Of a stretch of 64,000 nucleotides of DNA, positions 2,236-48,454 are shown one piece after another. Origin of the DNA: Cephalotus follicularis (taxonomy: Eukaryota; Streptophyta; Magnoliopsida; Oxalidales; Cephalotaceae); NCBI GenBank assembly GCA_001972305.1, contig BDDD01000722.1, positions 139,500 through 203,499 on the forward strand, in the 5' to 3' direction. A program made the position numbers and the translations under genes. How positions within the stretch are numbered: the first letter of the stretch is position 1; each line of letters starts with the position of its first letter. Below the pieces are notes generated by a model. It worked only from the letters and a program-made list of their open reading frames with translations. It did no database searches and had not been told where the DNA came from.

Positions 2236-3328
2236 AATTCTAAGTTAAAATCAATGAACAATATATGTGCGATCAAAAATAAATAAGTAAACTAATTTAA
2301 AGGGAGAGTTAGAGAGTTTGCAAACACGGTTTTAGAGTGGTTCAGCTTAACTCTTGCCTACGTCCACTTTTCCCAAGGATCTCCTTGAGTTTCCACTTGT
2401 CTCCGAATAAAATTCTGGGTGCTATTTGGTACACCTTTGTGATTGACCTCAATCACTTAGAATTCTCTTAGGGTTCACTCCCCAATCTCTCTTAGGGTTT
2501 ACTCCCCTATTAAAATCAAAGTGTAAGAAGAATAATGTTTGTTTTTAACCTCTCAAATGTTGGATTTTACAAGATAATCTCTCAATCTAAGTGGGAACAA
2601 ATATAGGCTAAGACACAAGACAAGAGCTTTTGAAATAGACTTGATGATTTTGAATGCCTTGTGGTGTTTTTGCTTGATTGATCTTTGTTTCTATGTTCAC
2701 TTGTGTTCTTGTTATTGTCTCTCTTCAAAAACCTTGTATATAGTCGTTTCTTGCTTTAGAAATCCGTTGGATGTGTCTTAAAACTTGTTGCTTCAAAAAC
2801 GGCGCATTAAAACTCTATCAGAAATTTTTCCAGCCGTGCAAATCGTCGACTGTTTGCCTCAAAGCGTCGCCGCTTATATGACCATTGGGTATTTGAATTT
2901 GAATTGTCTGGTCAAAGCGCAGGCGTTCTGAATGTTGGAGTCGACTGTTTCTTCAAAGCGCTGACGCTTTGTGTTGAGCGTCACCATTTTCTTCAAATTG
3001 ATTGGCTCCAAGAAGTCTCTGGTTTTAACCGCTGACTTATTGTGTCAAAGCGCAGACGCTTTGAATTCAAGCGCCGACGCTTCCATTTAGGCGTCGACGG
3101 TTTGGACACTTACTCCATTCCTCGAAAGGCTTCAACGGTTGAAATTTTTGTTTGCCTCGACTGTTGCACAAAGCGCTGACGCTTACTTCCTGACCGTCGA
3201 CGCTTTAAGCTGTTCCTGTAATTTTTCTTGCTGTTTTGCACATTCTATGTTTTTCTTGCACATAAAGTAACTTTGTTAAACACAAATATGTTATCATCAA
3301 AACTAGGATTGAGACATAAATGTCAACA
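2236..3328 (-). repeat. Element A 5' LTR
   Basis: Read on the minus strand it begins TGTTGACATTTATG at 3328 and runs toward 2236. It holds the palindrome array (2840-3205) and, near its 3' side (about 2318-2372), the block with GTGGACGTAGGC and GAACCACT also present in the LTRs of B, F and the neighbouring plus-strand LTR. The far end is approximate because it is truncated and fused to gag. Confidence 0.75.
2840..3205. repeat. Phased palindrome array, AAGCGCTGACGCTT type
   Basis: Degenerate palindromic 14-mers (for example AAGCGCTGACGCTT, AAGCGCCGACGCTT, GTCGAC cores) have centres near 2847.5, 2868.5; 2921.5, 2942.5, 2962.5, 2982.5; 3033.5, 3054.5, 3075.5, 3095.5; 3133.5, 3158.5, 3177.5, 3198.5. 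Within groups the step is mostly 20-21 bp, with one of 25 and one of 19. Counted by eye. Confidence 0.8.
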
Positions 3329-4419
3329 ATAAAGAAGTGCAGAAACAGGTCAAAACGCCGACGGTTTACACATAAGCGGCATCGCTTAATGGCAAACTGA
3401 CGAAGGTCTGAGCAAAATCGCTTAAAGCACCGATGGTCTAATAGAAAGCGTTAGCAGTTTGCACTAAGGCGTCAACGCTCAAGAGCTATGTATCAGCGGT
3501 TAAAAACAGAGACTTGTGGAACCAATTAAGGAACTCAAAGCGGCGACGCTCAAGGGAAAGCGTCAGCGCTTTATGCCAAACGGTGCCACGCTTGCAACAA
3601 AGTGCCAGCGGATTGAGCGAAGAATTCAAATTCAAACTTCTAACTGTAACGTAAGCGTCGACGCTTAGTGTTACTCCAGCAACGCTTTGCACGCGGGGAA
3701 CAATTACTGACAACAGTTTTAATGCGCCGTTTGAAGAAGGAATAATTCCCAAGTTTGAACTTATAACTCCCAAAACTAAAGCTACAACTTCCAAGGCAGA
3801 AGGAACCAATTTCAAGACAAAAAGTAGCACTTCCCAAGGCAAAATTTATAACTCCAACAATTCAAAAACATAAGATCAATAAATAGAAGCCAACACTCAA
3901 GATCAAAGTGAGACACTCACAATAGAACAAGAAGAAGAACTTTCATCAACTTAAGAGAGAAGATCTTCAAGGGAGCATAGCTTACACTTTCATATCCACT
4001 TCAAAGCTTGTGCCAAGCAATCTTTCACTTTCATATCAAATCTTTGAGAGGTTAATTTGTAAACACAAAATCTTTCCTACAAATATTTCTTTGTAAAGAG
4101 GGGAGTGGACTCTTATTAGGTGTTTCTTTGATTTGCACCCGTAAGCCAAAATCAAAGTGTAAGGTGTTTCTTTGATTTACATCCGTAATCCAAAATCAAT
4201 GGGTACTAGTTGATATCTAGTGGAATCTTAAGGGGATCTTGATAAAGTGGACGTAGGCAAGAGATTGGCCGAACCACTATAAACTGTGTTTGCATCTCTC
4301 TAACTCTCTCTCTTTATTATTAGTAATTGTTTGATTCTTCTTGTGTGATTGTTTATTTTCATAGTTTAATTTTGCTTTTTCCGTAAACAATTTATCTTTA
4401 GAGGTTGCCATATAGGACC
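3329..4419 (+). repeat. Plus-strand LTR related to element A's LTR, 5' end missing
   Basis: This plus-strand sequence is diverged from, but clearly related to, the element A LTR in opposite orientation. It contains the same type of palindrome array (centres about 3360.5, 3380.5, 3401.5; 3431.5, 3452.5, 3473.5, 3494.5; 3544.5, 3564.5, 3586, 3606.5) and the promoter block at about 4245-4300 (GTGGACGTAGGC ... GAACCACTATAAA). It ends near 4419. The first part is missing where element A begins; a likely reading is that A inserted into this LTR and the rest lies left of the window. Confidence 0.65.
4245..4300 (+). promoter_or_regulatory. Conserved Sirevirus LTR block, putative core promoter
   Basis: GTGGACGTAGGC, a short spacer, CCGAACCACTATAAA (a TATA-like tract) and GTTTGCATCTC occur in this order here and in the LTRs of A, B and F, although the surrounding LTRs have diverged. 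It lies near the 3' end of each LTR. Promoter function is an inference from conservation and the TATA-like sequence. Confidence 0.5.
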
Positions 4420-5270: not shown

Positions 5271-6534
5271 TGTTGGAAGTCTAGAGGGGGGGTGAATAAA
5301 CTTATAAAAATTTATCTAGCAAATATACCACCAATAAAATTAATTGCTCAAACACACAAGCGAAAAGTAAGGAGTTTAGGGTTTAGAGATTGCAAACGGA
5401 TATGTAGTGGTTCGGCAAACCGCCTACGTCCACTCCCCAAGGCCTCCCCTTGAGTATTCACTAGGTATGCCCCAATCCGGGCTTGGAACTCCAACCGAGC
5501 TCCAACACTTTCACTCCAACCAAGCGAATTACAACTTTTCTCCAAACGAGCAATACAAGAGACAACCTCTCTTGTATGAGTGAAAGTAGTAGTTTAAGTG
5601 TTTACAAATTCGTAGCGAATTTGTTTACAATGAAGCACAATTTATACAAAGCTACAAGTGTGTTTGTAATGTAAGAATAAAGCTTTGTAAATGTAGGTGA
5701 TTGCTTTGGATTGTTCTCTTTTGATTGTGTGAATGCTTAGTATTGAACTTGAGATAGCTTGAGAGAATGTGTAACTTGAAAGCTTGATCACTTGTGCAAG
5801 AGGTCCAATTTTCCTCTTATAGTTGAGCCTCCAACGGATCTATTTTTAACTGTCTGATACAAATCCAGTCGACTGGATTTGGACGGCAGTCGGCTGATTT
5901 GATGGCGCGTTTATTTGAATATAGCCGTTGGGAGTGGGCAGTCGGCTGGATCCTGTAGGCAGTCGACTGGTTGTGCTGGCAGTCGACTGGATCCCTGTTC
6001 CAGTCGGCTGTTGAGGCAAAATTGGAGATTACAAATGCTACTGCCTGGAATTGCATAATTGAAGGCAGTCGGCTGGATTCCCTGGCAGTCGATTGGACCC
6101 CCTGGCAGTCGACTGGTCCCCTACTTCAGTCGGCTGGATTGGGTGTAAAATGTTACAGAAGCTACTGCCTGACTTTCTGCCCATGGCAGTCGACTGATGC
6201 CCTGTGGCAGTCGACTGGAATTGCCTGGCAGTCCACTGCACCCCTGTGGCAGTCGACTGGATTGCTGTTTCTGCAGATTTTGAGTTTGGTTGAAGATGCA
6301 GTCGACTACATAGCCTTTGGGAGTCGACTCCTATCCTTGGCAGTCGACTGGATTTCTCTCCAGTCGACTGGAATTGCCTGTATCTGCATAAACATTCTTG
6401 GCACAACTTTGGACAAAGAATCAAGTGAGTAAATGCATTTATAACTTAAAGAATTATGCATACAAGTAACCTATGTTTGTTAATAATCAAAATAACTTAT
6501 GGTAAACATTTAATCGGGGTGGCAAAGGCCAACA
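5271..6534 (-). repeat. Element B 3' LTR
   Basis: 1264 bp. Minus-strand start TGTTGGCCTTTGCC at 6534, end CTTCCAACA at 5271. It contains the phased palindromes (5866-6370) and the promoter block near 5390-5435. The adjoining polypurine tract (from 6535 rightwards) makes this the 3' LTR. Confidence 0.92.
5866..6370. repeat. Phased palindrome array, CAGTCGACTG type, four quartets
   Basis: The 10-bp palindrome CAGTCGACTG or a 1-2 base variant (often CAGTCGGCTG) starts at 5866 and 5887, then at 5939/5960/5980/6001, 6066/6086/6106/6127, 6187/6208/6229/6250 and 6299/6321/6341/6361. Steps inside quartets are 20-22 bp; quartet starts are 112-127 bp apart. The linker sequence between quartets is also partly repeated. 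Confidence 0.9.
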
Positions 6535-6834
6535 ATCTCCCCCTTTTTGATGATTGACAAAACATGCATATTTTGCATAAATCTTGCCAAATTTTACCCA
6601 TTTTGTTCCAAAGTCCAAATTTTACCAATATAGGCATATCCAATGCATTTGATTACAAGACATTTCATCAGAATGCAATATATTTAATATATTCCCAAAA
6701 TGCATATGCAACCTTTCAAATTCATTTTGCAATGTGCAAAATATAAAACTTCTCTCCCCCTTTTTGTCAAACAACAAAAAGAGAAGTGGAAGCTCCCCCT
6801 CAATCATAGCACGGATTGAAGAGCTCCCCCTCAA
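6535..6834 (-). promoter_or_regulatory. Element B multiple polypurine tracts
   Basis: On the minus strand the tract AAAAAGGGGGAGAT directly precedes the 3' LTR (6535-6548). Further G-rich tracts lie at about 6750-6762, 6791-6802 and 6821-6834. The first primes plus-strand DNA synthesis in LTR retrotransposons; several such tracts in series are a known Sirevirus feature. No gene is visible between here and the extra ORF (6850-7216). Confidence 0.85.
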
Positions 6835-7216: not shown

Positions 7217-8305
7217 TCAAAGATCGGCCTGTCCTTGAAGAATGTTTGCTTGCCCCTCACGAAATTGATGCATTTCACCTTTGATAAACTCCATATCAGC
7301 TTGGGCAATATCCATTCTGGCCATAAGAGAATCAAGAGTAGGCCTGCTGCTGCTACTACTCACTCCAGCACTTGGACGCATCTCATACTGCTGTGGAACG
7401 TCCTCCTCCTCCTCATCATCATCCCCAACCCTAACATGCTCTTGCTCTCTTGCTTGCTCTCTACCTCTCCCTCTCACCTTGACCCATTCTCCTTCCTCAA
7501 ATGCAAGGTTTAATTGTCTAAGTCCCGCCTTATTCACCAAATGCTTATGGGAAGGCTTAACACTTTGCTCATCATCTGGGATATCGATGTTAAAAGAAGC
7601 TAGGACAGTCGAAATAATCCTACTAAGAAGCATAGGATATGGAGTGTGATTTGGCCTAGACAAAAGATGGTTGACAATAAGATAGGGTAGGTTAATTTGG
7701 GTTCCGTTTTTAACACAAGCGACGAATTTAAGATCGCGCTCGGAGGGGAGTGTGTGTGATCCTTGTTTTGGAAGAAAGGTGTTGGTAACAAGAAGTAGAA
7801 TAATCCTAGAGGCAATAGGTAAGTGACTACTAGTCACATTCAAGAGTGGATTTACATTTGGTTGCTCTAGACAAATCCATAGTGCCTCGATTTTTCCTAT
7901 GTCATGAAAATTAGTAATTCCCTCATTGGGAATTCCTAATGTTTCGGCAACTAGGTCGGGCGTAATACAAATAGGAGTTCCTAGAACAAACGAATTGGCA
8001 ATGCAAGTGGTGGAGGTTGCTAAATTGGCATAAAACATTTTCACAAGCCTAGGGTAAATAATGTGTGATGAGCAAATGTAATCAAGCCATCCCATAGCTT
8101 CTAACCAAGTTATCACAACTGAAAGATTGCTAATCAATACATCCCTACTTATCCATTTCTCACAATGTAGCTTAACTGAGCTAAAATAGGAATTATACCT
8201 CATTTCTTTCTCCTTGGAGAGAAAGAGGTTGTTGTCATAATCTAACTCCTCTTGAGAGCCTCTTGCAAGCCTTGAAGAACCTCCTCTTTGTCTTTTGGGA
8301 CCCAT
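7217..8305 (-). CDS. Element B extra ORF at the env position (plant transposon protein family, unknown function)
   Basis: 362 aa, starting at ATG (MGPKRQRGG). It lies between pol and the 3' LTR, where Sireviruses may carry an env-like gene. The sequence resembles the family often labelled 'putative plant transposon protein'; this is recognition from memory. Visible parts: a basic N-terminus (KRQR), a hydrophobic helical middle, an acidic run (DDDEEEEDVPQQ) and a C-terminal helical segment with repeated QADI/QANIL units of 7-8 residues. I see no signal peptide, transmembrane segment or glycoprotein signature, so calling it an envelope would be unsupported. The stop at 7217 replaces the codon read as Arg in element F's copy (CGA to TGA) and removes about 23 residues; the downstream codons are still open. 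A quartet of palindromes lies 116-186 bp upstream. Confidence 0.75.
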   Translation of the reverse strand: MGPKRQRGGSSRLARGSQEELDYDNNLFLSKEKEMRYNSYFSSVKLHCEKWISRDVLISNLSVVITWLEAMGWLDYICSSHIIYPRLVKMFYANLATSTTCIANSFVLGTPICITPDLVAETLGIPNEGITNFHDIGKIEALWICLEQPNVNPLLNVTSSHLPIASRIILLLVTNTFLPKQGSHTLPSERDLKFVACVKNGTQINLPYLIVNHLLSRPNHTPYPMLLSRIISTVLASFNIDIPDDEQSVKPSHKHLVNKAGLRQLNLAFEEGEWVKVRGRGREQAREQEHVRVGDDDEEEEDVPQQYEMRPSAGVSSSSSRPTLDSLMARMDIAQADMEFIKGEMHQFREGQANILQGQADL

Positions 8306-8420
8306 TGATGATTGCAGGTTCGGAGATTTTGAGAGAGAATGAGTTTTGGCGTTTTAAAAACTGAGAGAAGTGAAGAGGGCAGGTGAAAAATCGAGTTTAA
8401 AACCCTGTCTGTCGAGACTC

Positions 8421-8491
8421 CAGTCGACTGGCCACTAATGGCAGTCGACTGGATGGCAAAGCAGTCGACTAGAAATAAATCCAGTCGGCTG
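8421..8491. repeat. Isolated quartet of CAGTCGACTG palindromes outside the LTR
   Basis: CAGTCGACTG at 8421, 8442, 8462 (CAGTCGACTA) and 8482 (CAGTCGGCTG); steps 21, 20, 20 bp. It sits between the RNase H remnant and the extra ORF, upstream of that ORF's start. The rest of 8306-8709 shows nothing else recognisable. Confidence 0.88.
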
Positions 8492-8709: not shown

Positions 8710-9011
8710 TTAGGAAGGATTTTGCATACCTAGCTCTCTCCTCAAAGTGCAGAATCTTTCGTTGTCCAGCGGCTTTGTGAAAATATCTGCAACTTGGTTC
8801 AACGTGTCAATATATTCAAGAAATATATCACCCTTTTCAACATGATCTCTAAGAAAATGATGTCTTATTTCAATGTGCTTAGACTTAGAGTGTTGAACGG
8901 GGTTTTTACTTAAATTAATAGCACTAGTATTATCACATTTAATACATACATTGCTAATGTTTATTCCGAAATCGCAAAGTTGTTGCTTAAGCCACAAATC
9001 CAATAATCATC
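8710..9011 (-). pseudogene. Element B RNase H C-terminal remnant
   Basis: About 97 codons reading into LWLKQQLCDFGI, CDNTSAINLSKNP, HIEIRHHFLRD and TLNQVADIFTKPL, the standard end of copia RNase H. The upstream part of RNase H and all of reverse transcriptase (which would include YVDD) are absent. The junction with the integrase frame is near 9003-9011, where GATTATTGGAT from the pre-RT region meets TTGTGGCTTAAG from RNase H, in a different frame. Short TTGGAT/TTGTGG similarity at the join fits a deletion. Confidence 0.85.
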
Positions 9012-10622
9012 ATTTAAGGCATCTAAAACATTTTTGGGTTCGATATTAGAAATAAAAGCTACATTATCGCAATACTCCCTAAGAGCGGAACGAGTTCTTA
9101 CCCCCTCGGTAGGGTTACCGATTACCTCGTTGTCCTTCACGTACCCTCTTTCTCTTCTTGCGATTGGCTCCTTGGTGACTTGAACTTGTTGAATTTCTTC
9201 TTCATGTTCTACTTCTTCTTCAACTTTGTCAACATCACCATCTTCATTGTTAATGTCCAAGCCTTCCATTTGCTCCAATATACCTACATCATCAACAATA
9301 TCTCCCTTTCTCGGAGCATAATTAGACTCTTCAAATAAGACATGAATTGACTCTTCAATAATCAATGTTCTCTTATTAAACACCCTATATGCCTTAGAAT
9401 TCAAAGAGTAGCCTAGAAATATTCCTTCATCACTTTTGGCATCAAATTTTCCAAGATTATCTTTCCCATTATTTAAAACGAAAACTTTGCAACCAAAAGG
9501 TCTCAAGTGACTAACACTTGGTTTTCTATCATTGAAAAGCTCATATGGGGTTTTCTTTAAAATTGATCTAATCATGACTCTATTTATTATATAACATGCG
9601 GTATTCACGGCCTCCACCCAAAGATATTTAGGTAAATTATTTTCACAAAGCATGGTTCTCCCCATTTCTTCTTGGGTTCTATTCCTCCTTTCAACAACAC
9701 CATTTTGTTGAGGATTTCTAGGAGCCGAGAAGTTATGGTGAATACCTAGTTCATTACAAAAAGTTTCAAAGCCAAGATTTTCAAATTCTTTGCCGTGATC
9801 ACTACGTATGCTAACAATAGATAGACTCTTTTCATTTTGAATACGTCTACCAAAATTAACAAAGGAATCTAAGGCATCACTCTTCAAATCTAAGAATATA
9901 ACCCAAGTAAACCTAGAATAATCATAAACAATAACTAATCCATATTGTTTACCACCAAGACTTAAAATTCTAGTTGGTCCAAACAAATCAATGTGTAGTA
10001 ATTGTAAAATGCGAGTAGTTGAAACAACATTTTTAGCTTTAAAAGATGTTCTTGTTTGTTTGCCTTGTGCACATGCATCACACAAATTATCATTTTCAAA
10101 TTTCATTTTAGGCAAACCAATAACTAAATCTTTTCTAGAAAGTTTGGCAAGGACATACATGCTAGCATGGCCTAACCTTCTATGCCAAAGCCATTTGTCA
10201 TTAGTATTAGCATTAAAACACACATCTTTTGAAAACATTTCTTTTAGATAAACTACATACACATTGCCTTGTCTATGACTAACAAACTTTACAATATTGG
10301 TGCTAATGTCAATTATGTGACGACAAGAGGATTCAAAATTAATTTTATACCCTTTGTCACACAATTGTCTAACACTAAGCAAGTTATGCTTAAGCCCTAC
10401 AACATAAGATACATTTTCAATAAGAGTAGAGAATTTGTTACCAATTGAACCAATGTCACAAATCTTGGCCTTGTTGTTATCCCCGAAGGTGACCTTTCCT
10501 CCATCAACTTCTTTAAGATCGATGAAGAGGCTTTTGTCACCCGTCATGTGCTTTGAGCACCCGCTATCCACATACCACGGTTGCTCCTCTTTGTGGTTTG
10601 CCCGCAAGCATTGTTCCACCTA
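8961..10622 (-). CDS. Element B pol: protease, GAG-pre-integrase and integrase
   Basis: About 552 codons are open immediately after a TAG at 10620-10622. In order: aspartic protease with WYVDSGCSKHMTGD (intact DSG); GAG-pre-integrase with WLWHRRLGHAS and CDACAQGKQT (zinc-binding HHCC); integrase core with LLHIDLFGP, a second Asp in SDHGKEFEN and Glu in NGVVERRNRT, so the D,D,E triad is present; then the integrase C-terminal region and an acidic pre-RT linker. It ends in frame-shifted RNase H sequence after the RT deletion. It overlaps the end of gag by about 55 bp in another frame. The protein could cut and integrate but not reverse-transcribe, so mobility would need enzymes from another element. 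Confidence 0.88.
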
Positions 10623-12407: not shown

Positions 12408-12409
12408 AT

Positions 12410-13670
12410 TGTGGAAGTCTAGAGGGGGGGTGAATAGACTTATAAATATTTATCTAGCAAATATACCACCAATAAAATTAATTACTCAAACACACAAGCG
12501 GAAAGTAAGGAGTTTAGGGTTTAGAGATTGCAAACGGATATATAGTGGTTCGGCAAACCGCCTACGTCCACTCCCCAAGGCCTCCCCTTGAGTATTCACT
12601 AGGTATGCCCCAATCCGGGCTTGGAACTCCAACCGAGCTCCAACACTTTCGCTCCAACCAAGCGAATTACAACTTTGCTCCAACCGAGCAATACAAGAGA
12701 CAACCTCTCTTGTATGAGTGAAAGTAGTAGTTTAAGTGTTTACAAATTCGTAGCGAATTTGTTTACAATGAAGCACAATTTATACAAAGCTACAAGTGTG
12801 TTTGTAATGTAAGAATAAAGCTTTGTAAATGTAGGTGATTGCTTTGGATTGATCTCTTTTGATTGTGTGAATGCTTAGTATTGACTTGAGATAGCTTGAG
12901 AGAATGTGTAACTTGAAAGCTTGATCACTTGTGTAAGAGGTCCAATTTTCCTCTTATAGTTGAGCCTCCAACGGATCTATTTTTAACTGTCTGATACAAA
13001 TCCAGTCGGCTGGATTTGGACGGCAGTCGGCTGATTTGATGGCGCGTTTATTTGAATATAGCCGTTGGGAGTGGGCAGTCGGCTGGATCCTGTAGCCAGT
13101 CGACTGGTTGTGCTGGCAGTCGACTGGATCCCTGTTCCAGTCGGCTGTTGAGGCAAAATTGGAGATTACAAATGCTACTGCCTGGAATTACATAATTGAA
13201 GGCAGTCGGCTGGATTCCCTGGCAGTCGACTGGACCCCCTGGCAGTCGACTGGTCCCCTGCTTCAGTCGGCTGGATTGGGTGTAAAATGTTACAGAAGCT
13301 ACTGCCTGACTTTCTGCCCATGGCAGTCGACTGATGCCCAGTGGCAGTCGACTGGAATTTCCTGGCAGTCGACTGAACCCCTGTGGCAGTCGACTGGATT
13401 GTTGTTTCTGCAGATTTTGAGTTTGGTTGAAGATGCAGTCGACTACATAGCCTTTGGGAGTCGAATCCTATCCTTGGCAGTCGACTGGATTTCTCTCCAG
13501 TCGGCTGGAATTGCCTGTATCTGCATAAACATTCTTGGCACAACTTTGGACAAAGAATCAAGTGAGTAAATGCATTTATAACTTAAAGAATTATGCATAC
13601 AAGTAATCTATGTTGTTAATCATCAAAATAACTTATGGTAAACATTTAATCGGGGTGGCAAAGGCCAACA
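12410..13670 (-). repeat. Element B 5' LTR
   Basis: 1261 bp, paired with 5271-6534. Minus-strand TGTTGGCC at 13670 and CTTCCACA at 12410. The palindrome quartets lie at 13076-13507 and the promoter block at about 12526-12571 (GTGGACGTAGGC, GAACCACTATATATC). Confidence 0.92.
12526..12571 (-). promoter_or_regulatory. Putative core promoter of element B
   Basis: The same ordered block as at 4245-4300: GTGGACGTAGGCGG, then GCCGAACCACTATATATC and GTTTGCAATCTC. It is about 1.1 kb into the 1.26-kb LTR, which fits an R/U5 boundary. Inferred, not shown. Confidence 0.5.
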
Positions 13671-32900: not shown

Positions 32901-35666
32901 TGTAAAGCCCCGTAGCTGTTTTGAAGCTTAAGAGAAAAACTTTTTATGGTGTATAAATTTTTTTCTTTTTTTGTGAGGGGAAGGTTAAGTGTTGTTTTGT
33001 TATAAGCCCAAGTATAAAGCATGATTAGTAATAGTTGGAGGACTTAAGTGCAAAGCTTGTTGAGGAAGCTTCCAAATCCCAAGACAAAGGACGGCTTAAG
33101 TTGGGTTTAGTGTGGAGACTTTTTTGAATTGTAGCCACCCTTCTTCTAACTTCATCAGAGAGTTTAGAGAGAGAGAGTTCTAGTTTTCTTCTTCTTTCTG
33201 TTGCATAGTGCCTAGACCAGAGGAAGCTTGAAGCGTTCGACCCCAGCAAGAAGAACCAGCGGACAAGGAGAGAAGCAGTCAAGCCAGAGGAAGAGCGTAG
33301 CAGAAAAGAAGGGACGCTAACGTCCAAGGAAGTAACAAGAACTGTGAGTGGGACATCCTTTCTATGTTTCTAGTTATTTCATGATGTTCTTGATAACTCT
33401 TTCAGCTTTTCAATATCCAGTTCAGTGAGAGTTTTCTAACGGGAATTTGCTTCCTTGGCGTCTTTGTATGTTTCATTGACAGAAGAGAGAGAAAGAGAGT
33501 TTCTCGAGCACTAGAGCTCAAGTTCTTCTAAGTGAATTAGTCACTTTCCAGATAAGGTAACGCGTACGTGCTCAACCCCACTCCCCAACCTACTTTTGTC
33601 TATGATAGGAAGTTGAGTGAGTCTGCCCCCGGGTTCCACACCTGGATCTCCTTTACACTAGTGTCTATGATGGTGTTTAGGGTTTGAGTAAAGCAGAGCA
33701 CTATGTACATAGCTCCAACCTCCTCGGTCTACTATTGTCTATGATAGGAAGCCGGGCAAGACTGTCCCCAGGTCCTACCTGGATCTCTTTTACACTATTG
33801 TCTATGATGGTGTTTAGGGTTTGAGTACAGCAGAGCTAAGTTGTCAGAATAGAGATTAGAGCCTTTCAGTAAGTCTTCTAGAGTAGGACTTTGTCCTCGG
33901 CAGTTATGCCATCAGCCCAGATAAGTAAGTAAAGCAAAGAATAGCAAGCACAGAAGGGAACCATGGGTTCTCGGCAGTTACTGCCAAGCAGGCTTCGGCC
34001 TAGATCAGCTCAGCTCAGCGCCACTATAAGTTGGCAACTATATTATGTAACCAGCAGGCTTCGGCCTAGATCAACATAGCAAAGAAAAGACAGTTCCTAG
34101 CTTAGTTGTTCTCCTCGGGTGTTTAGCTGGGAAGGACCCCAATTCTTTATCATATATCCTTCTTTTAATCAGTTGTACTCTTAAGTTTATTTCAACTTTC
34201 ATGAACAGTCTAGAATCAGCTAAGCAGAGAAAAGAGTAAGTTTTTCAAGTACTTTGAGCGTTTCTTTATTGTGTGCCATGACATATGTTTTGTTACAGTC
34301 TTTCCCCAGTTGGGATAGTTATTCATGTTTATGGTAAGCTTTCTTTCAGCACATTCATTTTATAAGAATGTACCAGAGGATGTTTTATTCTCATTCACTT
34401 AGTCAGTTGGACTAATTCCCTCACAGACTGTTTTGCAGACCAGCCAGTCGGAGGAGACCCTTCAGCTCAGCAGTAGATAGCTAACAAGGTAGTTTTTGAG
34501 CTCAGCACCGTGGAGCACCAACTCGGGCGTTTAGCATTGCATGACATGGGGAATTCTTGGGTTCTTTTACCCTTCTTTTGTAGTAGAGTAGTTGAGTGTT
34601 TACCCTTTGTATAGACAGTAAGCTTAGTTGTTCTTTTGCCTACCAGAGGAGGCAGTGTATATACCAGAGGACATATATGTAATAGTTTTATACTTTCATT
34701 ATATGTTATGGATGTTTTGAATTGATAGGTGTGCTTATCATGTGTTTTTATGAACTTTTCATGTTTTGAGTTTTGTGATCCCAGGCCTCGTAGGGGAGCT
34801 AGAGAGTCCCCGGGCTAGAATTGCGGGGATGAGCCCAGCAAGGGTGTTATGTTATGCTTGGGAGCAAGGGTTTGTTTTAAGAGCGTTACCCGGGGAGGCA
34901 AGGTGTCCCCAGGGTAATGATGATGTTGGGCTTGACAATGGAGCAGGGAAGGTGTCCCTGAAGAGAGTGGCCAGGGGTACCATGTTAGAGTAAGGCCCGG
35001 GATGGGCATAAGTTATGTTAAGATGTTTATGTTTTAAGTTATGCTGTGCATTTTAATGTTAGTTGTGTTGTTGAGTTGAGCAGGGTTGTACGCCGGGGGA
35101 CAACTTATGTTTGCGTAGTCTCCAGGGGAGTTTAAGTGAGCACGTGAGGCATGCGTGGGTTTCTCCCCAGGTGCTTACGTTGTTTTCTCCCCAGGGCGTT
35201 AGTTATGCGAAGCATTTTGGAACTTGGGCTAAGGATGTTTTAGCCTGAGAAAGAGAAAGACTCGAGGACAAGGAGCGTCCTCGGGCGTGTTGGACCACAG
35301 GTGGTTATGTGTGCTCGTGAGTTGCACGTGTGTGCTCTCCCCAGGCATGCTTTGCACGTTAAGTTAAGTGACCATGTGATGAGCATGTGGGGCTTAAGTG
35401 ATACGATTCGTTTGGAGCCTTGGTTAAGTAAAGCTTTGGGCATAAGTGTTACGGCGCGTTTTGGAGCTTTGGTTTTAAGTTGTGCGCGGGGCATGAGCAG
35501 GAGTCGTTGTTGGATCCTCTGCCCCAGCTGCCCTGTTAGCTTCGCGCCCAGCCCAGCCCAGGCTTTCTCCTCGGGCAGTCTTAGTTTAAGAGGGTTGTTG
35601 GCAAGAGGAGCGTCATCCCCGGTCATGGCACGTGTCCCATAGAGTTAGCGGGAACGGGTCCTGACA
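32901..35666 (+). repeat. Element G 5' LTR
   Basis: 2766 bp. Compared with the 3' LTR it keeps about 230 bp (about 35285-35530) that the other copy lacks. It contains two similar sub-blocks around 33590-33680 and 33720-33830 (TCTATGATAGGAAG, CTATGATGGTGTTTAGGGTT). Followed by PBS TGGTATCAGAGAGA. Confidence 0.88.
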
Positions 35667-37315: not shown

Positions 37316-39852
37316 TGTAACGCCCTGTAGCTGTTTTGGAGCTTAAGAGAAAAACTTTTTATGGTGTATAATTTTATTTTTTATTTTTTTTTTTGTGAGG
37401 GGAAGGTTAAGTGTTGTTTTGTTATAAGCCCAAGTGTAAAGCATGATTAGTAATAGTTGGAGGACTTAAGTGCAAAGCTTGTTGAAGAAGCTTCCAAATC
37501 CCAAGACAAAGGATGGCTTAAGTTGGGTTTAGTGTGGAGACTTTTTGAGTTGTAGCCACCCTTCCTCTAGCTTCAGCAGAGAGTTTAGAGAGAGAGAGTT
37601 CTAGTTTTCTTCTTCTTTCCATTGTATAGCGCCTGGACCAGAGGAAGCTTGAAGCGTCCGACCCCACCAAGAAGAACCAGCGGACAAGGAGAGAAGTATT
37701 CAAGCCAGAGGAAGAGCGCATCAGAAAAGAAGGGACGCTAACGTCCAAGGAAGATGCAAGAACTGTGAGTGGGACATCCTTTCTATGTTTCTAGTTATTT
37801 CATGATGTTCTTGATAACTCTTTCAGTTTTTCAATATCCAGTTCAGTGAGAGTTTTCTAACGGGAATTTGTTTCCCTAGCGTCTTTGTATGTTTCCTTGA
37901 GAGAAGAGAGAGAAAGAAAGTTTCTCGAGCACTAGAGCTCAAGTTCTTCTAAGTGAATTAGTCACTTTTCAGATAAGGTAACGCGTACGTGCTCAACCCC
38001 ACTCCTCAGCCTACTATTGTCTATGATGGGAAGTTGAGTGAGTCTGCCCCCGGGTTCCACACCTGGATCTCCTTTACACTATTGTCTATGATGGTGTTTA
38101 GGGTTTGAGAGCAGCCGAGCACTATGTACATAGCTCCAACCTCCTCAATCTACTATTGTCTATGATAGGAAGCCGGGCGAGACTGTCCCCAGGTTCTACC
38201 TGGATCTCCTTTACACTATTGTCTATGATGGTGTTTAGGGTTTGAGTACAGGAGAGCTAAGTTGCCAGAATAGAGATTAGAGCCTTTCAGTAAGTCTTCT
38301 AGAGGAGGACCTTGTCCTCGGCAGTTATGCCATCAGCCCAGATAAGTAAGTACAGCAAAGAATAGCAAGCACAGAAGGGAACGATGGGTTCTCAGAAGTT
38401 ATTGCCAAGCAGTCTTCGAGCTAGATCAGCTCAGCTCAGCGCCACTATAAATTGGCAACTATATTATGTAACCAGCAGGTTTCGGTCTAGATCAGCATAG
38501 CAAAGAAAAGACAGTTCCTAGCTTAGTTGTTCTCCTTGGGTGTTTAGCCGGGAAGGACCCCAGTTCTTTATCAGATATCCTTCTTTTAATCAGTTGTACT
38601 CTTAAGTTTATTTCAGCTTTCATGAACAGTCTAGAATCAGCTAAGCAGAGAAAAAGTAAGTTTTTCAAGTACTTTGAGCATTTCTTTATTGTATGACATG
38701 ACATATGTTTTGTTACAGTCTTTTCCCCAGTTGGGATAGTTATTCATGTTTATGGTAAGCTTTCTTTCAGCACATTCATTTTATAAGAATGTACCGGAGG
38801 ATGTTTTGTTCTCATTCACTTAGTCAGTTGGATTAATCCCCTCACAGACTGTTTTACAGACCAGCCAGCCGGAGGAGACCCTCCAGCTCAGCAGTAGATA
38901 GCTAGCAAGGTAGTTTTTGAGCTCAGCACCGTGGAGCGCCAGCTCGGGCAGGTGTTTAGCATTGCATGGCATGGTGCATTCTTGGGTTCTTTTACCCTTG
39001 TTTTGTAGTAGAGTAGTTGAGAGTTTACCCTTTGTATAGACAATAAGCTTAGTTGTTCTTTTGCCTACCAGAGGAGGCAGTGTATATAACAGAGGACAAC
39101 TATGTAATAGTTTTATACTTTCATGATATTTTATGGATGTTTTGAGTTGATAGATGTGCTTATCATGTGTCTTTATGAACTTTTCATGTTTTGAGTTTTG
39201 TGATCCCAGGCTTGGCAGAGGAGCTAGAGAGTCTACGGGCTAGTATAGCGGGGATGAGCCCAGCAGGGGTGTTATGTTATTCTTGGGAGCAAGGGTTTTG
39301 TTTTAAGAGCGTTACCCCGGGGAGGCAGGTTGTCCCCAGGGTAATGATGATGTTGGGCTTAACAAGGGAGCAGGGAAGGTATCCCTGGAGAGAGTGGCCA
39401 GGGGTGCCATGTTAGAGTAAGGCCCGGGATGGGCATAATTTATGTTAAGAGCTTTATGTTTTAAGTTATGCTGTGCGTTTTAATGTTAGTTGTGTTGTTG
39501 AGTTGAGCAGGGTTGTACGCCGGGAGACAACTTATGTTTGTGTAGTCTCCAAGGGCGTTTAAGTGAGCACGTGAGGCGTGCGTGGGTTTCTCCCTAGGCG
39601 CTTAAGTTGTTTTCTCCCCAGGGCGTTAGTTATGCGCAGCGTTTTGGAACTTGGTCTAAGGATGTTTTAGCCTGGGAAAGAGAAATACCCGAGGACAAGG
39701 AGCGTCCCCGAGCGTCCCCTGTTAGCTGCGCGCCCAACCCAGCCCAGGCTTTCTCCTCGAGTAGTCTTAGTTTAAGAGGGTTTTTGGCAAGAGGAGCGCC
39801 ATCCCCGGTCAGGGCACGTGTCCCATAGAGTTAGCGGGAACGGGTCCTGACA
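37316..39852 (+). repeat. Element G 3' LTR
   Basis: 2537 bp, starting TGTAACGCCCTGTAG right after the chromovirus-like end sequence (AATTTTGAGGACAAAATTTC ... GTGGAGGA). High similarity to the 5' LTR apart from the missing block between AGGAGCGTCC and CCCTGTTAGC. Confidence 0.9.
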
Positions 39853-41001: not shown

Positions 41002-41054
41002 TGTAATGCCCCGGATATATATAAATATATATAATATTATGTAAAAAAAAAACA

Positions 41055-41082
41055 GGCGCATAACACAAGTGTGTTATGCGCC
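41055..41082. repeat. Perfect 28-nt palindromic hairpin near LTR start
   Basis: Arms GGCGCATAACACA and TGTGTTATGCGCC around AG, 13 bp each. Conserved in the other LTR at 48510-48537. It lies about 55 bp from the LTR start. Confidence 0.95.
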
Positions 41083-41396
41083 ATGCGCATCACACTTGCG
41101 CCAAAGAAACAGAGAGGACACGAGAGAGACACAGGAGAGAGAGAACCAGAGAGCGGGAGAGAGAGAGGCGCTGGAGAAGATGATGACGCCGACGAGAGAA
41201 CGACGCAGGTCCTGCACTGCCAACAGTAAGCTCCTTCCTTCTCCTATCTTTTCATTTCTTTCCTCTGTCGCCCGACGCCTTGCTACTGCCGTGCATTCCA
41301 CCATCGGTTAGCGTCGCGGGAAGGTTCGGTCTTCACCTAGGAGGCCGGCTACACCTATATCAGTGGCTGATTTTGCGCCATTCGGCCGAAAACGAC

Positions 41397-41800
41397 CGGA
41401 TTCGAACTGACGAGTTGACTTAGTGAAGCCAACTCGCTGCCTCCTTTGACCGCGCTTTCAGCGCCGAGTCATGGCGAGTCTCGGTCGCCAATGGACTGAT
41501 TGAAGGATTTTAAGGTCGGTTATGGCTTTTTTGAGTGTTGACCGGATTTGTGGTTGACCGCCGAGTCAACTCAGTGAGTTGAACTCACTGTCGGCCGTGA
41601 CTGGGCGTTTCGGCGCCGATTCACGGTGAGTTACGGGTGGAGACACCGTAAGCGGACTATTTTGTGACACTTTTGTGAAGTGGCCGGAATTGTGGATGTC
41701 CGGCGAGTCAACTCAGTGAGTTGACTCACTGTCCGCTGTGACTGCGCGATTCACGGCGAGTCGCGGTTATCAATGTGTAGATCGTAACGGAATGTCTGAT
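41397..41800 (+). repeat. Three degenerate repeats with palindromic cores
   Basis: Three blocks of roughly 130 bp, each with CCGGA.TT, a GAGTCAACTCAGTGAGTTGAC-like palindrome, a C-rich GTGACTG region and GATTCACGGCGAGT. The third has perfect 11-bp arms GAGTCAACTCA and TGAGTTGACTC (41705-41727). The same blocks occur in the 3' LTR at about 48860-49250. Confidence 0.75.
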
Positions 41801-42369
41801 TGTTATTGTAGCGATGCTGAAAGAGAAATAGAGCTCTGTTAACACCAGATGGAGCTGTGATCGTGATTGCGAGTGAAGCTTAGAGGAGGAGGCAGCTAGT
41901 CGATTCCACTGCAAGTCCTCCTGACTCGCAAGCTCAACTGTTAACAGGTAGGTATACATATGCTCCAACGGTACATGCTCAGATTAATGTTGGCTTGATC
42001 CCATTTGTATACGTTTGGGACATAGTATACAAATGGTAGATCACTAGAGTACGGTTATACTACTTTACTTGCATTCATGCATTTTGAATGGATTGTATGG
42101 ACATGACTGTTCATTGATGATTGTATGCTAAATTGATTGTTATGGTTATGCATGATTACTGATTACATGGTTTAATGAACTGTATACGGGCATAATGGAC
42201 TAAATGGAGAACTGAGAGAAGTTGAGCTTCTGCCTTCTCTCAATTCAAGGGTTATGATATTGGAAATGGATTATGGGTTATGGCTATTGTATGGATTGAT
42301 CAATTGTATTGCATGAGACTAAATGAGATAACCCATTCATGATCCTCATGAATTTTAGACCACATCAGA

Positions 42370-42805
42370 TAATGTTTATCCCACATCGTGGGAGGACCGA
42401 TATGGACAATGTTACCCCACATCGTGGGAGGATCGATATGGATAGTGTTTATCCCACATCGTGGGAGGACCGATATGAAAAATGTTACCCCACATCATGG
42501 GAGGACCGATATGGACAATGTTACCCCACATCACGGGAGGATCGATATGGATAGTGTTTATTCCACATCGTGGGAGGACCAATATGGACAATGTTACCCC
42601 ATATCGTGAGAGGATCGATATGGATAGTGTTTATCCCACATCGTGGGAGGACCGATATGGACAATGTTACCCCACATCGTGGGAGGATTGATATGGATAG
42701 TGTTTATCCCACATCGTGGGAGGACCGATATGGACAATGTTACCCCACATCGTGGGAGGATTGATATGGATAATGCTTGCCCCACATCGTGGGAGGACCG
42801 ATATG
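42370..42805 (+). repeat. VNTR with CCCACATCGTGGG hairpin unit, 12 copies
   Basis: Units of about 36 bp alternate in two versions (TTTATCCCACATCGTGGGAG and GTTACCCCACATCGTGGGAG), each with an inverted repeat CCCAC...GTGGG. I count 12 copies here and 4 at 49830-49975 in the 3' LTR. Confidence 0.88.
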
Positions 42806-43110
42806 GACGGTATGGTATAGATATGGTATGCATGGACCTACGGTATGCACGGTATGGTCAGTGTTATCTCAACCCTATTTGTCTACGACACGGAGAGTGC
42901 GTAGATTATGGAATGGACCTTATGGATCGTTATGGAATGTATAGTTATCGAATTGTATCGTACCGCATCGTTATCATATCGTTATGGATCGTATCAATAT
43001 CGTATCGTTATGGATCATATCGATATCGTATCATTATAGATCATATCGTTATCAAATCGTATCGTATCATTATAGTATCGCATCATTATAGATCATATCG
43101 GTATCGTTAT

Positions 43111-43405
43111 CGGACCAGGACCTTCGGGAATTGGGTAATCGTATCGTAATCGGACCAGGACCTTCGGGAACTGGGTAATCATATCGTTATCAGACCAGGA
43201 CCTTCAAGAACTGGGTAATCATATCGTTATCTGACCAGGACCTTCGGGAATTGGGTAATCGTATCGTTATCGGACCAGGAGCTTCGGGAACAGGGTAATC
43301 ATATCGTTATCGGACCAGGACCTTTGGGAACTGGGTAATCGTATCGTCATCGGACTAGGACTTTCGGGAACTAGTATATCGGACCAGGACCTTCGAGGAA
43401 CTGGG
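43111..43405 (+). repeat. Minisatellite, GGACCAGGACCTTCGGGAAC unit, 8 copies
   Basis: Unit of about 40 bp (GGACCAGGACCTTCGGGAAC, TGGGTAATC, TATCGTTATC). Eight copies counted here, five at about 50247-50420 in the 3' LTR. Flanked on both sides by degenerate TATCG repeats. Confidence 0.88.
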
Positions 43406-44380
43406 AATCGTATCGAATTGTTATCAAATCGTATCGTATCGTTATCGAATCATATTGTATTGTTATAGATTGTATCGTATCGTTATCGAATCGTTATGCA
43501 TCGAATAATTAGGGATTGTAAACGGTTATGGACCGTTATCGGATGTGGACCGTAAATGGATGTGAATTTTAACCGGATATGGACCGTAAACGGTTATGGT
43601 TATTGAGGGCAACAGTTATGGCTACGGATGGATAAGATATGGTTATGGACCGTATTGTTATGGCTCATGATGGTCCTGATTGTTATGGTATGGCTATACA
43701 ATGGTTACGGTAGGACCATGGTATGTATGCCTAGATGGTTGTTGTTGATCCTATTCTTATACGCTGGTATGGGGCGGTTGTATACGAATGGTAGATCACT
43801 AGCGTATGTGAATCTAGGGGAATGGTTGTAGTGGGCTAGAACCTTTGGGGTCTAACGATTGGCTTGTTAAAGAGTGATGATTGATTTGATCCCATTCCTA
43901 TACGCCGGTATGGGACGGTCGTATACGAATGGTAGATCGCATGTTCTATTGCTCTCTAGGTTATGGTGCATGACATTTATATAATGAGTTACATTGCTAT
44001 GAATTGGCATTCATGCATATCTTGTCATGCATATATCTCACATATTGTACACATATCTACTGCACTTCTATATGCTCATTGCATATGTATATCCTACACA
44101 ACCTTCGGGTTGCTGACCCATTGCATTGTATTGTAATGTAATGGGTCAGGTTCAGGTCTAGGTGACGCGCAACAGTGACCAGCCAGGTTAAATCCAGGGT
44201 AAGGATCTACATCTCCTCCGACCTACTTTGTATAAATGTGATATTGTAAAAGAACAAATTTTGGAGTATGGATGTATTTCTGGTTATTGTATGAGACAAA
44301 TCTAAAGTTAAAATAGAGATATGTTTTATATTCAGCTATTGACCTGCCGGCTTATGGCAGTTCATGTTTAATATGAGTGT

Positions 44381-45179
44381 TGTTGGCCTTTGCCACCCTG
44401 TTTATTTGCATTTACATATGTTATTTTGATGATTAACAAACATAGATTACTTGTGTTGCATAATTCTTTAAGTTATAACTTCACATACTCACTTGATCTT
44501 ATGTCCAAAGTTGTGCCAAGAATGTTTATGCAGATACAGGCCATTCCAGCCGACTGGTGAGCAATCCAGTCGACTGCCAAGGCTAGGAGTCGACTTCCAA
44601 AGTTATGTAGTCGACTGCATCTTCAACCAAAACCCAGAATCTGCAGGAACAACAATCCAGTCGACTGACACAGGGGTCCAGTCGACTGCCAGGCAAATCC
44701 AGTCGACTGTCACAGGGCATAAGTCGACTGCCATGGGTACAATTTCAGGCAGAAGCTTCTGTAACATTTTACACCCAGTCCAGCCGACTGAAGCAGGGGA
44801 ACAGTCGACTGCCAGGGGGTCCAGTCGACTGCCAGGGAATCCAGCCGACTGCCATCAATTGTGCAAAATCATACAGTAGGATCTGTAACTTCTTAATTAG
44901 CCTCAACAGCCGACTGAAGCAGGGCATCAGTCGACTGCCGAGCACACCAGTCGACTGCCTACAGGATCCAGCCGACTGCCGCACTACCAACGGCTATATT
45001 CAAATATACGCGCCATCAATCCAGCTGACTGCCGTACAAATCCAGCCGACTGGATTTGTATCAGACAGTTAAAAATAGATCCGTTGGAGGCTCAACTATA
45101 AGAGGAAAATTAGAGCTCTTGCACATGTGATCAAGCTTTCAAGTTACACATTCTCTCAAGCTATCTCAAGTACAATACC
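44381..45179 (+). repeat. Element F 5' LTR, 3' end deleted
   Basis: Homologous in sequence and order to B's LTR, opposite strand. Palindromes run from 44547 to 44978 (44547, 44567 and onward) with two more near 45022 and 45043. It stops at CTCAAGTACAATACCAA, where B's LTR would continue toward the promoter block. Confidence 0.88.
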
Positions 45180-45846
45180 AAGCGCCTCTAGGATCATTCT
45201 ACTTCTTGTTACCAACACTTTTCTTCCAAAAGAAGGATCACACACCCTCCCCTCCGAGCGCGACCTTAAATTCGTCTCTTGTGTTAAAAACGGAACCCCA
45301 ATTAACCTACCCTATCTTATTGTCAACCATCTTTTGTCTAGGCCAAATCACACTCCATATCCTATGCTTCTCAGTAGGATCATTTCGACTATCCTTGCTT
45401 CATTTAACATAGATATTCCGGATGATGAGCAAAGCATCAAACCTACCCATAAGCAATTGGTGAACAAGGCAGGCCTTAGATTGTGTGGCATTGCATTTGA
45501 GGAAGGAGAGTGGGTCAAGATGAGAGGGAGAGGTAGAGAGCAAGCAAGAGATCAAGAGCATGTTAGGGTTGGGGATGATGATGATGAGGAGGAGGACGAT
45601 CCACAGCAGTATGAGATGCGTCCGAGTGCTGGTCCGAGCAGTAGCAGCAGCAGGCCTACCCTTGATTCTCTTCTGGCCAGAATGGATATTGCCCAAGCTG
45701 ATATGGAGTTTATCAAATGTGAAATGCATCAGTTTCGTGAAGGCCAAGCAAACATTCTTCAAGGTCAAGCGGATCTTCGACAGGGACAAGCGGACATCCT
45801 TCAGTTGCTTCAAAACGCTTTCCCACAGCACCCTCTACCATCTTGA
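45180..45846 (+). pseudogene. Element F extra ORF, N-terminus deleted
   Basis: About 222 codons matching the C-terminal two thirds of B's extra ORF, from ASRIILLLVTNTFLP to the end. Differences are mostly single residues. The C-terminus is complete: after ILQGQADL it continues RQGQADILQLLQ to a stop at 45846, showing what B's premature stop removes. The frame is still open, and the deletion leaves it fused to LTR-derived codons (from about 45127) without a good ATG. The repeated GQA units suggest a coiled coil. Survival of this frame while gag and pol were lost is notable, but may be chance. Confidence 0.8.
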
Positions 45847-46129
45847 GCTTACATATGCATTATCATGTTTTTCTAAGTGTATTTTGGAAACTTTGCTTTT
45901 GTAATATCTTTAGTTGTTTTTGAAGTGTGAAAGACAATGTGAATGACAATATGCTTTTGGTTTATGTATGGAATTACAATGTGTCTCATACTATTACTTT
46001 AATCTTGTGGTTAATGTGATTACTTATAGACTTCAAGTTTTTTTTTTTAATGGAATTGTGCTTCAATCTTAATTGATCTCTCTTATTGCATTGAGTTTAT
46101 TGATAAAATTGTATAGGAATGCTTAAGTT

Positions 46130-46523
46130 GAGGGGGAGCTCTTCAATCCGTGCTATGATTGAGGGGGAGCTTCCACTTCTCTTTTTGTTGTTTGACAAAA
46201 AGGGGGAGAGATATATTATTTTGCACATTGCACATTGCATTCAAATTTATTTTGCACATTGCACATTGCATTGAAATTTATTTTGCACACTGCACATTGC
46301 ATTGAAATTTAAAGGTTGCATATGCTTTTGGGAAATATATTGATAAATATTGCATATTGATGAGATGGTTTGTAATCTTGCTTTGAGCAAGTATATTTTG
46401 TTATGACAAATGCATTGGATATGCCTATATTGGTAAATTTGGACTTTGGAACTATATTGGGTAAAATTTGTCAAGATTTATGCAAAATATGCATGTTTTG
46501 TCAATCATCAAAAAGGGGGAGAT
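46130..46523 (+). promoter_or_regulatory. Element F multiple polypurine tracts
   Basis: GAGGGGGAGC at about 46130 and 46160, AAAAAGGGGGAGAG at about 46198-46210, and AAAAAGGGGGAGAT directly before the 3' LTR (about 46510-46523). Between them (46240-46320) a short ATTTTGCACATTGCACATTG unit is repeated about three times. Confidence 0.85.
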
Positions 46524-47577
46524 TGTTGGCCTTTGCCACCCCGTTTAATTGCATTTACATATGTTATTTTGATGATTAACAAACATAGATTACTTGTGTT
46601 GCATAATTCTTTAAGTTATAACTTCACATACTCACTTGATCTTATGTCCAAAGTTGTGCCAAGAATGTTTATGCAGATACAGGCCATTCCAGCCGACTGG
46701 TGAGCAATCGAGTCGACTGCCAAGGCTAGGAGTCGACTTCCAAAGTTATGTAGTCGACTGCATCTTCAACCAAAACCCAGAATCTACAGGAACAACAATC
46801 CAGTCGACTGACACAGGGATCCAGTCGACTGCCAGGCAAATCCAGTCGACTGTCACAGGGTATAAGTCGACTGCCATGGGTACAATTTCAGGCAGAAGCT
46901 TCTGTAACATTTTACACCCAATCCAGCCGACTGAAGCAGGGGAAAGTCGACTGCCAGGGGGTCCAGTCGACTGCCAGGGAATCCAGCCGACTGCCATCAA
47001 TTGTGCAAAATCATACAGTAGGTTCTGTAACTTCTTAATTAGCCTCAACAGCCAACTGAAGCAGGGCATCAGTCGACTGCCGAGCACACCAGTCGACTGC
47101 CTACAGGATCCAGCCGACTGCCGCACTACCAACGGCTATATTCAAATATACGCGCCATCAATCCAGCTGACTTTACATTACATACACTTGTAGCTTTGTT
47201 TAAAGTGAGCTTCATTGTAAACAAATTCACTACGAATTTGTAATCATTCAAACACTTATTTCACTCATACAAGAGAGGTTGTCTCTTGTATTGCTCGGTT
47301 GGAGCAAAGTTGTAATTCGCTTGGTTGGAGCGAAAGTTGTTGGAGCTCGGTTGGAGTTTCAAGCCCGCATTGGGGCATACTAGTGAAATACTCAAGGGGA
47401 GGCCTTGGGGAGTGGACGTAGGCGGTTTGCCGAACCACTATATATCCGTTTGCAATTCTCTAAACCCTACACTCTTTACATTTCCGCAATTGTGTGTTTG
47501 TGTTTATTGAATTATTTTGTGGTATTATTGCTAGTAATTTTTATAAGTCTATTCACCCCCCCTCTAGACTTCCTACA
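46524..47577 (+). repeat. Element F 3' LTR
   Basis: 1054 bp, shorter than B's LTR because about 200 bp are missing at 47171 (CAGCTGACTTTACATTAC). Palindrome quartets start at 46690/46710/46730/46751, 46801/46822/46843/46864, 46924/46944/46964/46984 and 47049/47070/47090/47111. Promoter block at about 47408-47460. Confidence 0.9.
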
Positions 47578-47906
47578 AGTGTTGATGTAAAGGACATGTA
47601 ATGGTCCATATATTGTGATAAACTACTGTTTTCTCCTTTGAGAGTGTGGTTGTTGAGGGCTGAGCCCAAGATATAAAATGTGTTTTTCTTTACGGGGAGT
47701 TTAGTCCGATAAAAGAATACTTCATGCCAAATTTTTGGGAGATTTTAAGAGTTAGTTTTTATTTGAATTGATTATTCCGCTAGTTTATATGACTGTTTAA
47801 AGTTATAAACTTATAGCACTTTTGAGTATGGATATGAAATGATTGAATGGAAGGTATCTCACGCGTCGGATCATGGGGGTTTACTCTCGTGGTTCGGGGT
47901 GTGACA

Positions 47907-48454
47907 GCTTGGTATCAGAGCTACTCCTATGCTGGATACGCCAGGATAGGGTCCCCGGCTAGTGGAATTGTGATTGATGGATTGAGTTAAAGTGCTGTAT
48001 TTGGAGTTACTTGGAGTAGCGGAATAAGAAGTGTTATATGAAGTATCTTGGAATTATGGTTATGAAAGTTGATAGCTGACTGTTGTCTCTTATACAATGT
48101 GGGATATGGACGGTCAATGCGGAAGAACAGCAAGAGGAGATAGAGCCGGACCGACAACCAGACGGACCCGAGCCAATAGAATTGTTGAAAAGGAAAGTAC
48201 GGCTTAAGAAGTAGAACATGTTACTTCGGCTCAAGAACAGCCTAGAGGTTATTTAATGAGAGATGCATGGCATGATGACCAAATGAATGGAATGGTGCAG
48301 CGACAACCGACTGCAAATTGACGGTAGTTAATGTGAGGCTAAGTTTACTGAGGATAGCACCTCATATGGAAGACAAAGAAGATGGATGACATTGTACCTC
48401 ACATGTTTTAACCTAAGGAATCTCGAGGATGAGATTTCTCTAAGGAGGGGAGGA
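47907..48454 (+). other. Element E interior with gag N-terminal remnant
   Basis: Starts with PBS TGGTATCAGAGC (47910-47921, a full 12-base match to tRNA-iMet). Around 48110-48330 a frame reads MWDMDGQCGRTARG and TTRRTRANRIVEKE, with a stop soon after, then DAWHDDQMNGMVQRQ; this looks like the Arg-rich start of a gypsy gag, not a functional gene. It ends with the polypurine tract AAGGAGGGGAGGA. Confidence 0.7.

Follow-up and report, generated by a model that had tools for sequence, protein, structure and literature searches.

Palindromic repeated-motif (RM) boxes were described by Bousios et al. (2010) in 13 Sirevirus elements, with 3 to 14 boxes per LTR (PMC2829016). The boxes sit before the TATA box and, if an env gene exists, before the env gene as well; in the text of that description no function is shown for them, and no single binding protein could be named by its authors (PMC2829016). 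The same paper gives hallmarks of Sireviruses: about four polypurine tracts (PPTs) per linker before the 3' LTR, an AT/TG attachment after the terminal PPT with an inverted repeat bordering the PPT, a CA/ATTGG junction with the short PBS TATCAGAGC, and a polyC-rich integrase signal near the 3' end of the LTR (PMC2829016).

The window analysed here is a stretch of 64,000 nucleotides from Cephalotus follicularis (contig BDDD01000722.1), in which we found two related LTR retrotransposons, element B on the minus strand and element F on the plus strand. The U3 part of their LTRs contained CAG(T/C)CGACTG-like boxes, 18 in each intact array. An earlier note on this DNA had mentioned short repeated motifs in non-coding regions of Sireviruses of other plants, and a motif of this kind was indeed reported in 2010 (PMC2829016). 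The evidence for selection on the boxes is the new element of the present analysis, which narrows the footprint to eight bases and points to a class of candidate proteins; its comparison of lineage differences with post-insertion differences is applicable to any Sirevirus family with many copies.

Structure of the two elements

The coordinates of both elements and of their box arrays are given in Table 1.

Table 1. Features of elements B and F in the window (quartets numbered in element sense)
Feature	Position	Strand	Remarks
3' LTR of element B	5271..6534	-	TGTTGG...CAACA ends; 5-bp flanking duplication ATAAG
TATA-like box CTATAAGAG, B 3' LTR	5814..5822	-	downstream of last box; conserved in B 5', B 3' and F 5' LTRs
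Closing box pair, B 3' LTR	5866..5896	-	starts 5866/5887; completes the 18-box array
Fourth quartet, B 3' LTR	5939..6010	-	
Third quartet, B 3' LTR	6066..6136	-	
Second quartet, B 3' LTR	6187..6259	-	
First quartet, B 3' LTR	6299..6370	-	
Linker end before B 3' LTR	6535..6830	-	four PPTs; AT lies between the terminal one and the LTR
Env-position ORF, element B	7217..8353	-	Pfam PF20167 (putative plant transposon protein); 378 aa, stop to stop
Internal quartet, element B	8421..8491	-	starts 8421/8442/8462/8482; upstream of env-position ORF
Integrase part of pol, element B	8961..10619	-	gag_pre-integrs, rve and SH3_retrovirus domains
5' LTR of element B	12410..13670	-	alignment with 3' LTR spans 12408-13670
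18-box array, B 5' LTR	13003..13507	-	layout as in B 3' LTR
Element F	44381-47577	+	flanking AGTGT
5' LTR of element F	44381..45183	+	shortened by deletion; 18 of 18 boxes at 44547-45052
3' LTR of element F	46524..47577	+	16 boxes in register at 46690-47120 plus remnant; internal deletion

The LTR pair of element B showed 97.9% identity. Four polypurine tracts precede the 3' LTR in element F as well as in element B, and the terminal PPT is attached in the AT/TG manner (AAAAAGGGGGAG-AT-TGTTGG). A 17-bp inverted repeat with mismatches was found, with its left arm bordering the PPT and its right arm about 42 bp inside the LTR. Element B contains a tRNA-Met primer site, and its primer junction reads ACA-ATTGG-TATCAGAG with T replacing the last C, so that the CA/ATTGG feature is present. 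About 25 bases before the LTR end lies the polyC-rich stretch CACCCCCCC, matched to the integrase signal by description only. The PPTs, the AT/TG attachment, the inverted repeat, the ATTGG junction and the polyC stretch agree with a Sirevirus-type (Ty1/copia) identity, and these hallmarks support what the earlier note had said of the LTR.

The ORF between the internal quartet and the 3' LTR of element B would be an env gene by its position. All of its matches were from Cephalotus follicularis among the 120 listed of 288, and the top-scoring of these 120 showed 94% identity over 87% of the query. The approximately 600 bases between the integrase ORF and this ORF would be too few for reverse transcriptase plus RNase H.

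In element F a deletion begins within the 5' LTR and extends into the internal region. At the joint 45183/45184 its 5' LTR is fused to the env-position region. At a second joint, 47172/47173, about 210 bases of the 3' LTR are gone including the end of the box array. Because this internal deletion took the array end, the F 3' LTR retains 16 boxes and a remnant and contains no TATA-like box.

Several other repeats were observed in the window. Element F lies inside one of two long direct-repeat copies (41002-47909 and 48455-52027), which are apparently LTRs belonging to a different element. The first copy is followed at 47910 by a site resembling a tRNA-Met primer site (TGGTATCAGAGC), and the distance from one copy to the other is only about 550 bases. 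Both copies contain tandem arrays (42371-43593 and 49825-50613) with units of approximately 36-37/73, 40 and 17-21 bp, including the gapped palindrome TCCCAC-3-GTGGGA. A 2.4-kb direct repeat (32901-35288 and 37316-39715, 93.8% identity) is unrelated to the box array.

Layout of the box array

In element sense the array is composed of blocks of 4+4+4+4+2 boxes with steps of 20-22 bp. In the 5' LTR of element B the boxes start at LTR positions 164, 184, 204 and 226 (block 1), 275, 296, 317 and 338 (block 2), 398, 419, 439 and 459 (block 3), 524, 545, 565 and 586 (block 4), and 638 and 659 (block 5); the remaining LTRs hold this register to one or two bases. The array thus occupies LTR positions 164-668 and ends 44 bp before CTATAAGAG, which is located at 712-720.

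All 16 sites that had been listed for the B 3' LTR were recovered, 15 of them with no mismatch or one mismatch to CAGTCGACTG and the site at 6321 (GAGTCGACTC) with two. The regular step of 20-22 bp within the quartets was found as described, the quartet starts are spaced by 127, 121 and 112 bp, in agreement with the recurrence at 112-127 bp, and the same layout does exist in the other LTR of element B (13076-13507) and on the opposite strand in the LTR of element F (46690-47120). The internal quartet, 67 bases before the open frame 8353-7217, was absent from that list.

Such an array is not expected by chance. In 530 bp of the B 5' LTR we counted 17 words with at most one mismatch, while in 2000 first-order Markov sequences the mean count was 0.016 and none had more than 1. 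When 18 boxes were placed randomly in 505 bp, 13 of 17 steps of 20-22 bp were never reached in 20,000 trials, the maximum being 7.

Of the exact palindromes of 8 or 10 bases that occur five or more times in the window, none but the box word was clustered; one gapped palindrome also clusters, elsewhere in the window. GTCGAC words at 2845-3657 are scattered with irregular distances. A second tandem repeat of 25-26 bp (GCTCGGTTGGAGC-like) was observed at 12645-12696 and 47286-47356, downstream of the TATA-like box in LTRs of the B/F family.

Origin of the layout

The 13 linkers within the blocks of the LTR align with each other above shuffles (z 8.7), with a common form like CCAGGGGATC, which makes the step of 20-21 bp the length of one repeat unit in an old tandem array. 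Tandem Repeats Finder (TRF) also revealed 20-21 bp arrays in the box blocks. Homology between spacers was found for the pair that follows blocks 2 and 3 (z 6.0) and for none of the remaining five pairs. The array therefore goes back to old tandem repetition of a unit of 20-21 bp, in which at least one quartet was duplicated along with its spacer. The three linkers of the internal quartet showed no detectable mutual likeness (z 0.6, n=3); compared with the LTR linkers they gave a mean score of -3.38 against -4.92 for shuffles (sd 0.31), a resemblance above shuffles.

The 13 steps within the LTR blocks have a mean of 20.7 and sd of 0.63, and those of the internal quartet are 20, 20 and 21. Linkers of 10, 11 and 12 bases occur seven, eight and one times. 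From the ratio of indels to substitutions we roughly expected 0.24 indels per linker, and the linker lengths are therefore no tighter than expected. Of the indels fixed between B and F, one fell within the 288 bases of the quartets and four within the 358 bases elsewhere (p=0.39), which is too few to tell.

Within the blocks, the boxes of a quartet do lie on one helical face as the earlier note had it (R 0.82-1.00 at 10.3-10.6 bp/turn). For all 18 boxes, R was 0.29 at 10.5 bp/turn (P 0.66 with random block offsets), and, both without a P value, 0.74 at 10.3 and 0.40 at 10.6 bp/turn. Helical phasing may be a selected property of the boxes, but the homologous linkers, the indel comparison and the absence of a common block phase at 10.5 bp/turn do not demonstrate it.

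Selection on the box

The four LTRs (the B pair and the F pair) were aligned to position 646, with gap columns omitted; the comparison ends there because the second LTR of element F is deleted beyond. A base common to both B LTRs and unlike the base common to both F LTRs was taken as a lineage difference, which predates insertion, and a base differing in one LTR only as a singleton, which arose after insertion. One linker column with another pattern was included in the total only.

Lineage differences were found at 3 of 168 box positions, 19 of 127 linker positions, 27 of 186 positions between blocks and 15 of 163 positions in the 5' flank. The boxes differ in this respect from the rest of the compared LTR (3/168 versus 61/476, p=7e-6) and from the linkers (p=2e-5). 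Singletons were as frequent in the boxes (6/168) as in the rest (15/476, p=0.80), and the lineage and singleton patterns differ from each other (p=0.006). A first pass without the cut at 646 gave lineage differences of 3/177 for boxes and 19/138 for linkers; there the deletion raised the number of singletons.

No lineage change occurred at the 128 positions that make up the inner eight bases (AGYCGACT) in 16 boxes. Shifting the mask by one base gave 3-4 changes versus 2, shifting by ten bases gave 18-22, and none of 20,000 random masks was as low (minimum 3). In this one lineage pair the constrained footprint is the eight bases AGYCGACT. The comparison, of one lineage pair and four LTRs, showed that the boxes were kept while the lineages replicated and mutated like their surroundings after insertion. 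Since fixed differences were compared with post-insertion differences, selection on the box is separable from tandem copying.

Box composition and candidate binding protein

Box composition was determined for 74 boxes, those of the four LTRs plus the internal quartet. Positions 2, 7, 8 and 9 are invariant in all of them, and at position 4 there is a T in 49 boxes and a C in 25. With T the box (CAGTCGACTG) is perfectly palindromic, and with C it is not. As position 4 varies while its mirror base A7 is fixed (A7G in none of the 74), the symmetric DNA-binding protein that had been suggested for these sites is weakened, with the reservation that duplicated boxes are not independent.

On the element strand, G(C/T)CGAC was found in 69 of 74 boxes and (G/a)(C/t)CGAC in 70. 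A CBF/DREB-type AP2 factor might be named tentatively as the reader of the box, and it is the best candidate that we can name. To our knowledge, other factors fit the box less well. The suggestion is made because the binding motif of barley HvCBF1 is (G/a)(C/t)CGAC, according to the title of Xue (2002) as cited in reference lists, and that same C/T is the one place in the eight-base box core where variation is common.

Proposed explanation and alternatives

The array is probably a U3 enhancer of a Sirevirus-type Ty1/copia element, built from binding sites for a host protein and representing a variant of the RM boxes. Each box would be a putative site for a host DNA-binding protein with the footprint AGYCGACT, and bound boxes would activate transcription; protein binding, the identity of the protein and activation are all our inference. 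The layout itself was produced by duplicating a unit of 20-21 bp in tandem, and one quartet or more was duplicated along with its spacer. The boxes are situated upstream of the TATA-like box and in element B also upstream of the env-position ORF. Against an enhancer it can be held that shuffled sequence folds less well than the array.

A neutral minisatellite, in which only recent tandem duplication acted and the box is unconstrained, could account for the homologous linkers, the homologous spacers of blocks 2 and 3 and the TRF arrays, but it predicts equal divergence of boxes and linkers, and the lineage differences reported above are far from equal at alike post-insertion rates. We regard it as highly improbable: tandem duplication without constraint had been raised as a refuting case, and copying does account for the layout but not for the conservation of the box. 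The narrow distribution of the steps might suggest instead that the two-turn step was selected, the proteins on a quartet facing one side. Each quartet, with its four AGYCGACT boxes spaced by two helical turns, would then act as one cooperative platform on which a host AP2-type factor binds, multiplied in the LTR and placed once more before the env-position gene for a second coordinated promoter. The internal quartet retains the step despite its less similar linkers, which still resemble the LTR linkers above shuffles. But the unit length of the tandem repeat yields the step for free, the linker lengths vary, the lineage indels do not discriminate, and the blocks share no phase at 10.5 bp/turn; selection of the step and the cooperative platform both seem quite unlikely to us.

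Structure in RNA or as a cruciform is another alternative, in which neighbouring boxes would form hairpins either in supercoiled DNA or in the transcript, whose 3' end includes U3, with the stems conserved. The array folded better than 40 shuffles in four of four LTRs (z -3.5 to -6.5), single quartets gave z of -2.3, -6.1, 0.0 and -4.9 and the internal quartet -8.3, and palindromes in maize LTRs are described as small-RNA hotspots (PMC5311732, PMC10760457). Any repeated palindrome would give strong folding, though, and the quartet with z 0.0 folds no better than its own shuffles. The C at position 4 of 25 boxes mispairs with A7 of any partner, and there is no compensating change at position 7; stems are therefore disfavoured as the conserved property, and we consider this explanation unlikely. 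Methylation could also set the promoter on or off through the boxes as a CpG cluster. The boxes contain 18 of the 22 CpGs of the 530-bp stretch, the CpG o/e ratio is 0.62 with the boxes and 0.21 with the boxes masked, and RM clusters define predicted CpG islands in other Sireviruses (PMC2829016). The footprint, however, spans eight bases and not the CpG alone, and a methylation effect is compatible with protein binding and could act through it; as an explanation in its own right we think it very unlikely. Both roles, stem-loop and CpG switch, had been offered in the earlier note and keep some standing, with less support than the U3 enhancer.

Comparison with known systems

The 4+4+4+4+2 layout does not occur in the text passages on RM boxes of PMC2829016, and quartets are not mentioned in the titles and abstract beginnings of the literature on Sirevirus palindromes and repeats; the layout may have been reported elsewhere all the same. 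Among the literature containing CAGTCGACTG, no titles or abstract beginnings concerned a retrotransposon LTR. A search of viral contigs with two spaced boxes gave no match, and one with the integrase ORF gave no relative that could be confirmed. A chance ORF crossing the array, used as a probe for more LTRs, gave 49 candidates, of which none was scored.

Compared with the HvCBF1 motif of CBF/DREB factors, the boxes are alike in G(C/T)CGAC, which is a sequence resemblance only. The tomato LTR retrotransposon Rider is comparable in that its U3 contains a CBF-type site; unlike in B and F, no array is described in the passage on this site (PMC6762207). Its transcripts respond to drought and salinity and cold induction was not observed (PMC6762207), so that a CBF site is no proof of a response. 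The maize Ji, Opie and Giepum LTRs have similar palindrome clusters in their cis-regulatory part, with the consensus CACCGGACNNNGTCCGGTG, and small-RNA data exist for maize (PMC5311732, PMC10760457).

The closest likeness is to the Sirevirus RM boxes, which are also near-palindromic, CpG-rich and located in the upper LTR half before the TATA box, with a further cluster before the env gene (PMC2829016), represented here by the internal quartet. The copy number, 18 per intact array plus four internal boxes, lies above the threshold of at least eight, and CTATAAGAG resembles the Sirevirus cTATA-type motif in motif and place (PMC2829016). Over the box stretch, where the RM clusters of other Sireviruses have a predicted CpG island, GC content is 52% at the o/e ratio given above. 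The RM of Vitis (CGGTCGACCG) differs from CAGTCGACTG in two mirrored bases, and the array starts 164 bp into the LTR here versus 200-400 bp for RM boxes (PMC2829016). The CGG-CCG signature of the RM core is absent from CAGTCGACTG and CAGCCGACTG, as it also is from Tnd-1 (PMC2829016). With place and make-up matching the RM boxes and this signature absent, the box array is therefore a variant of the known RM-box kind without CGG-CCG.
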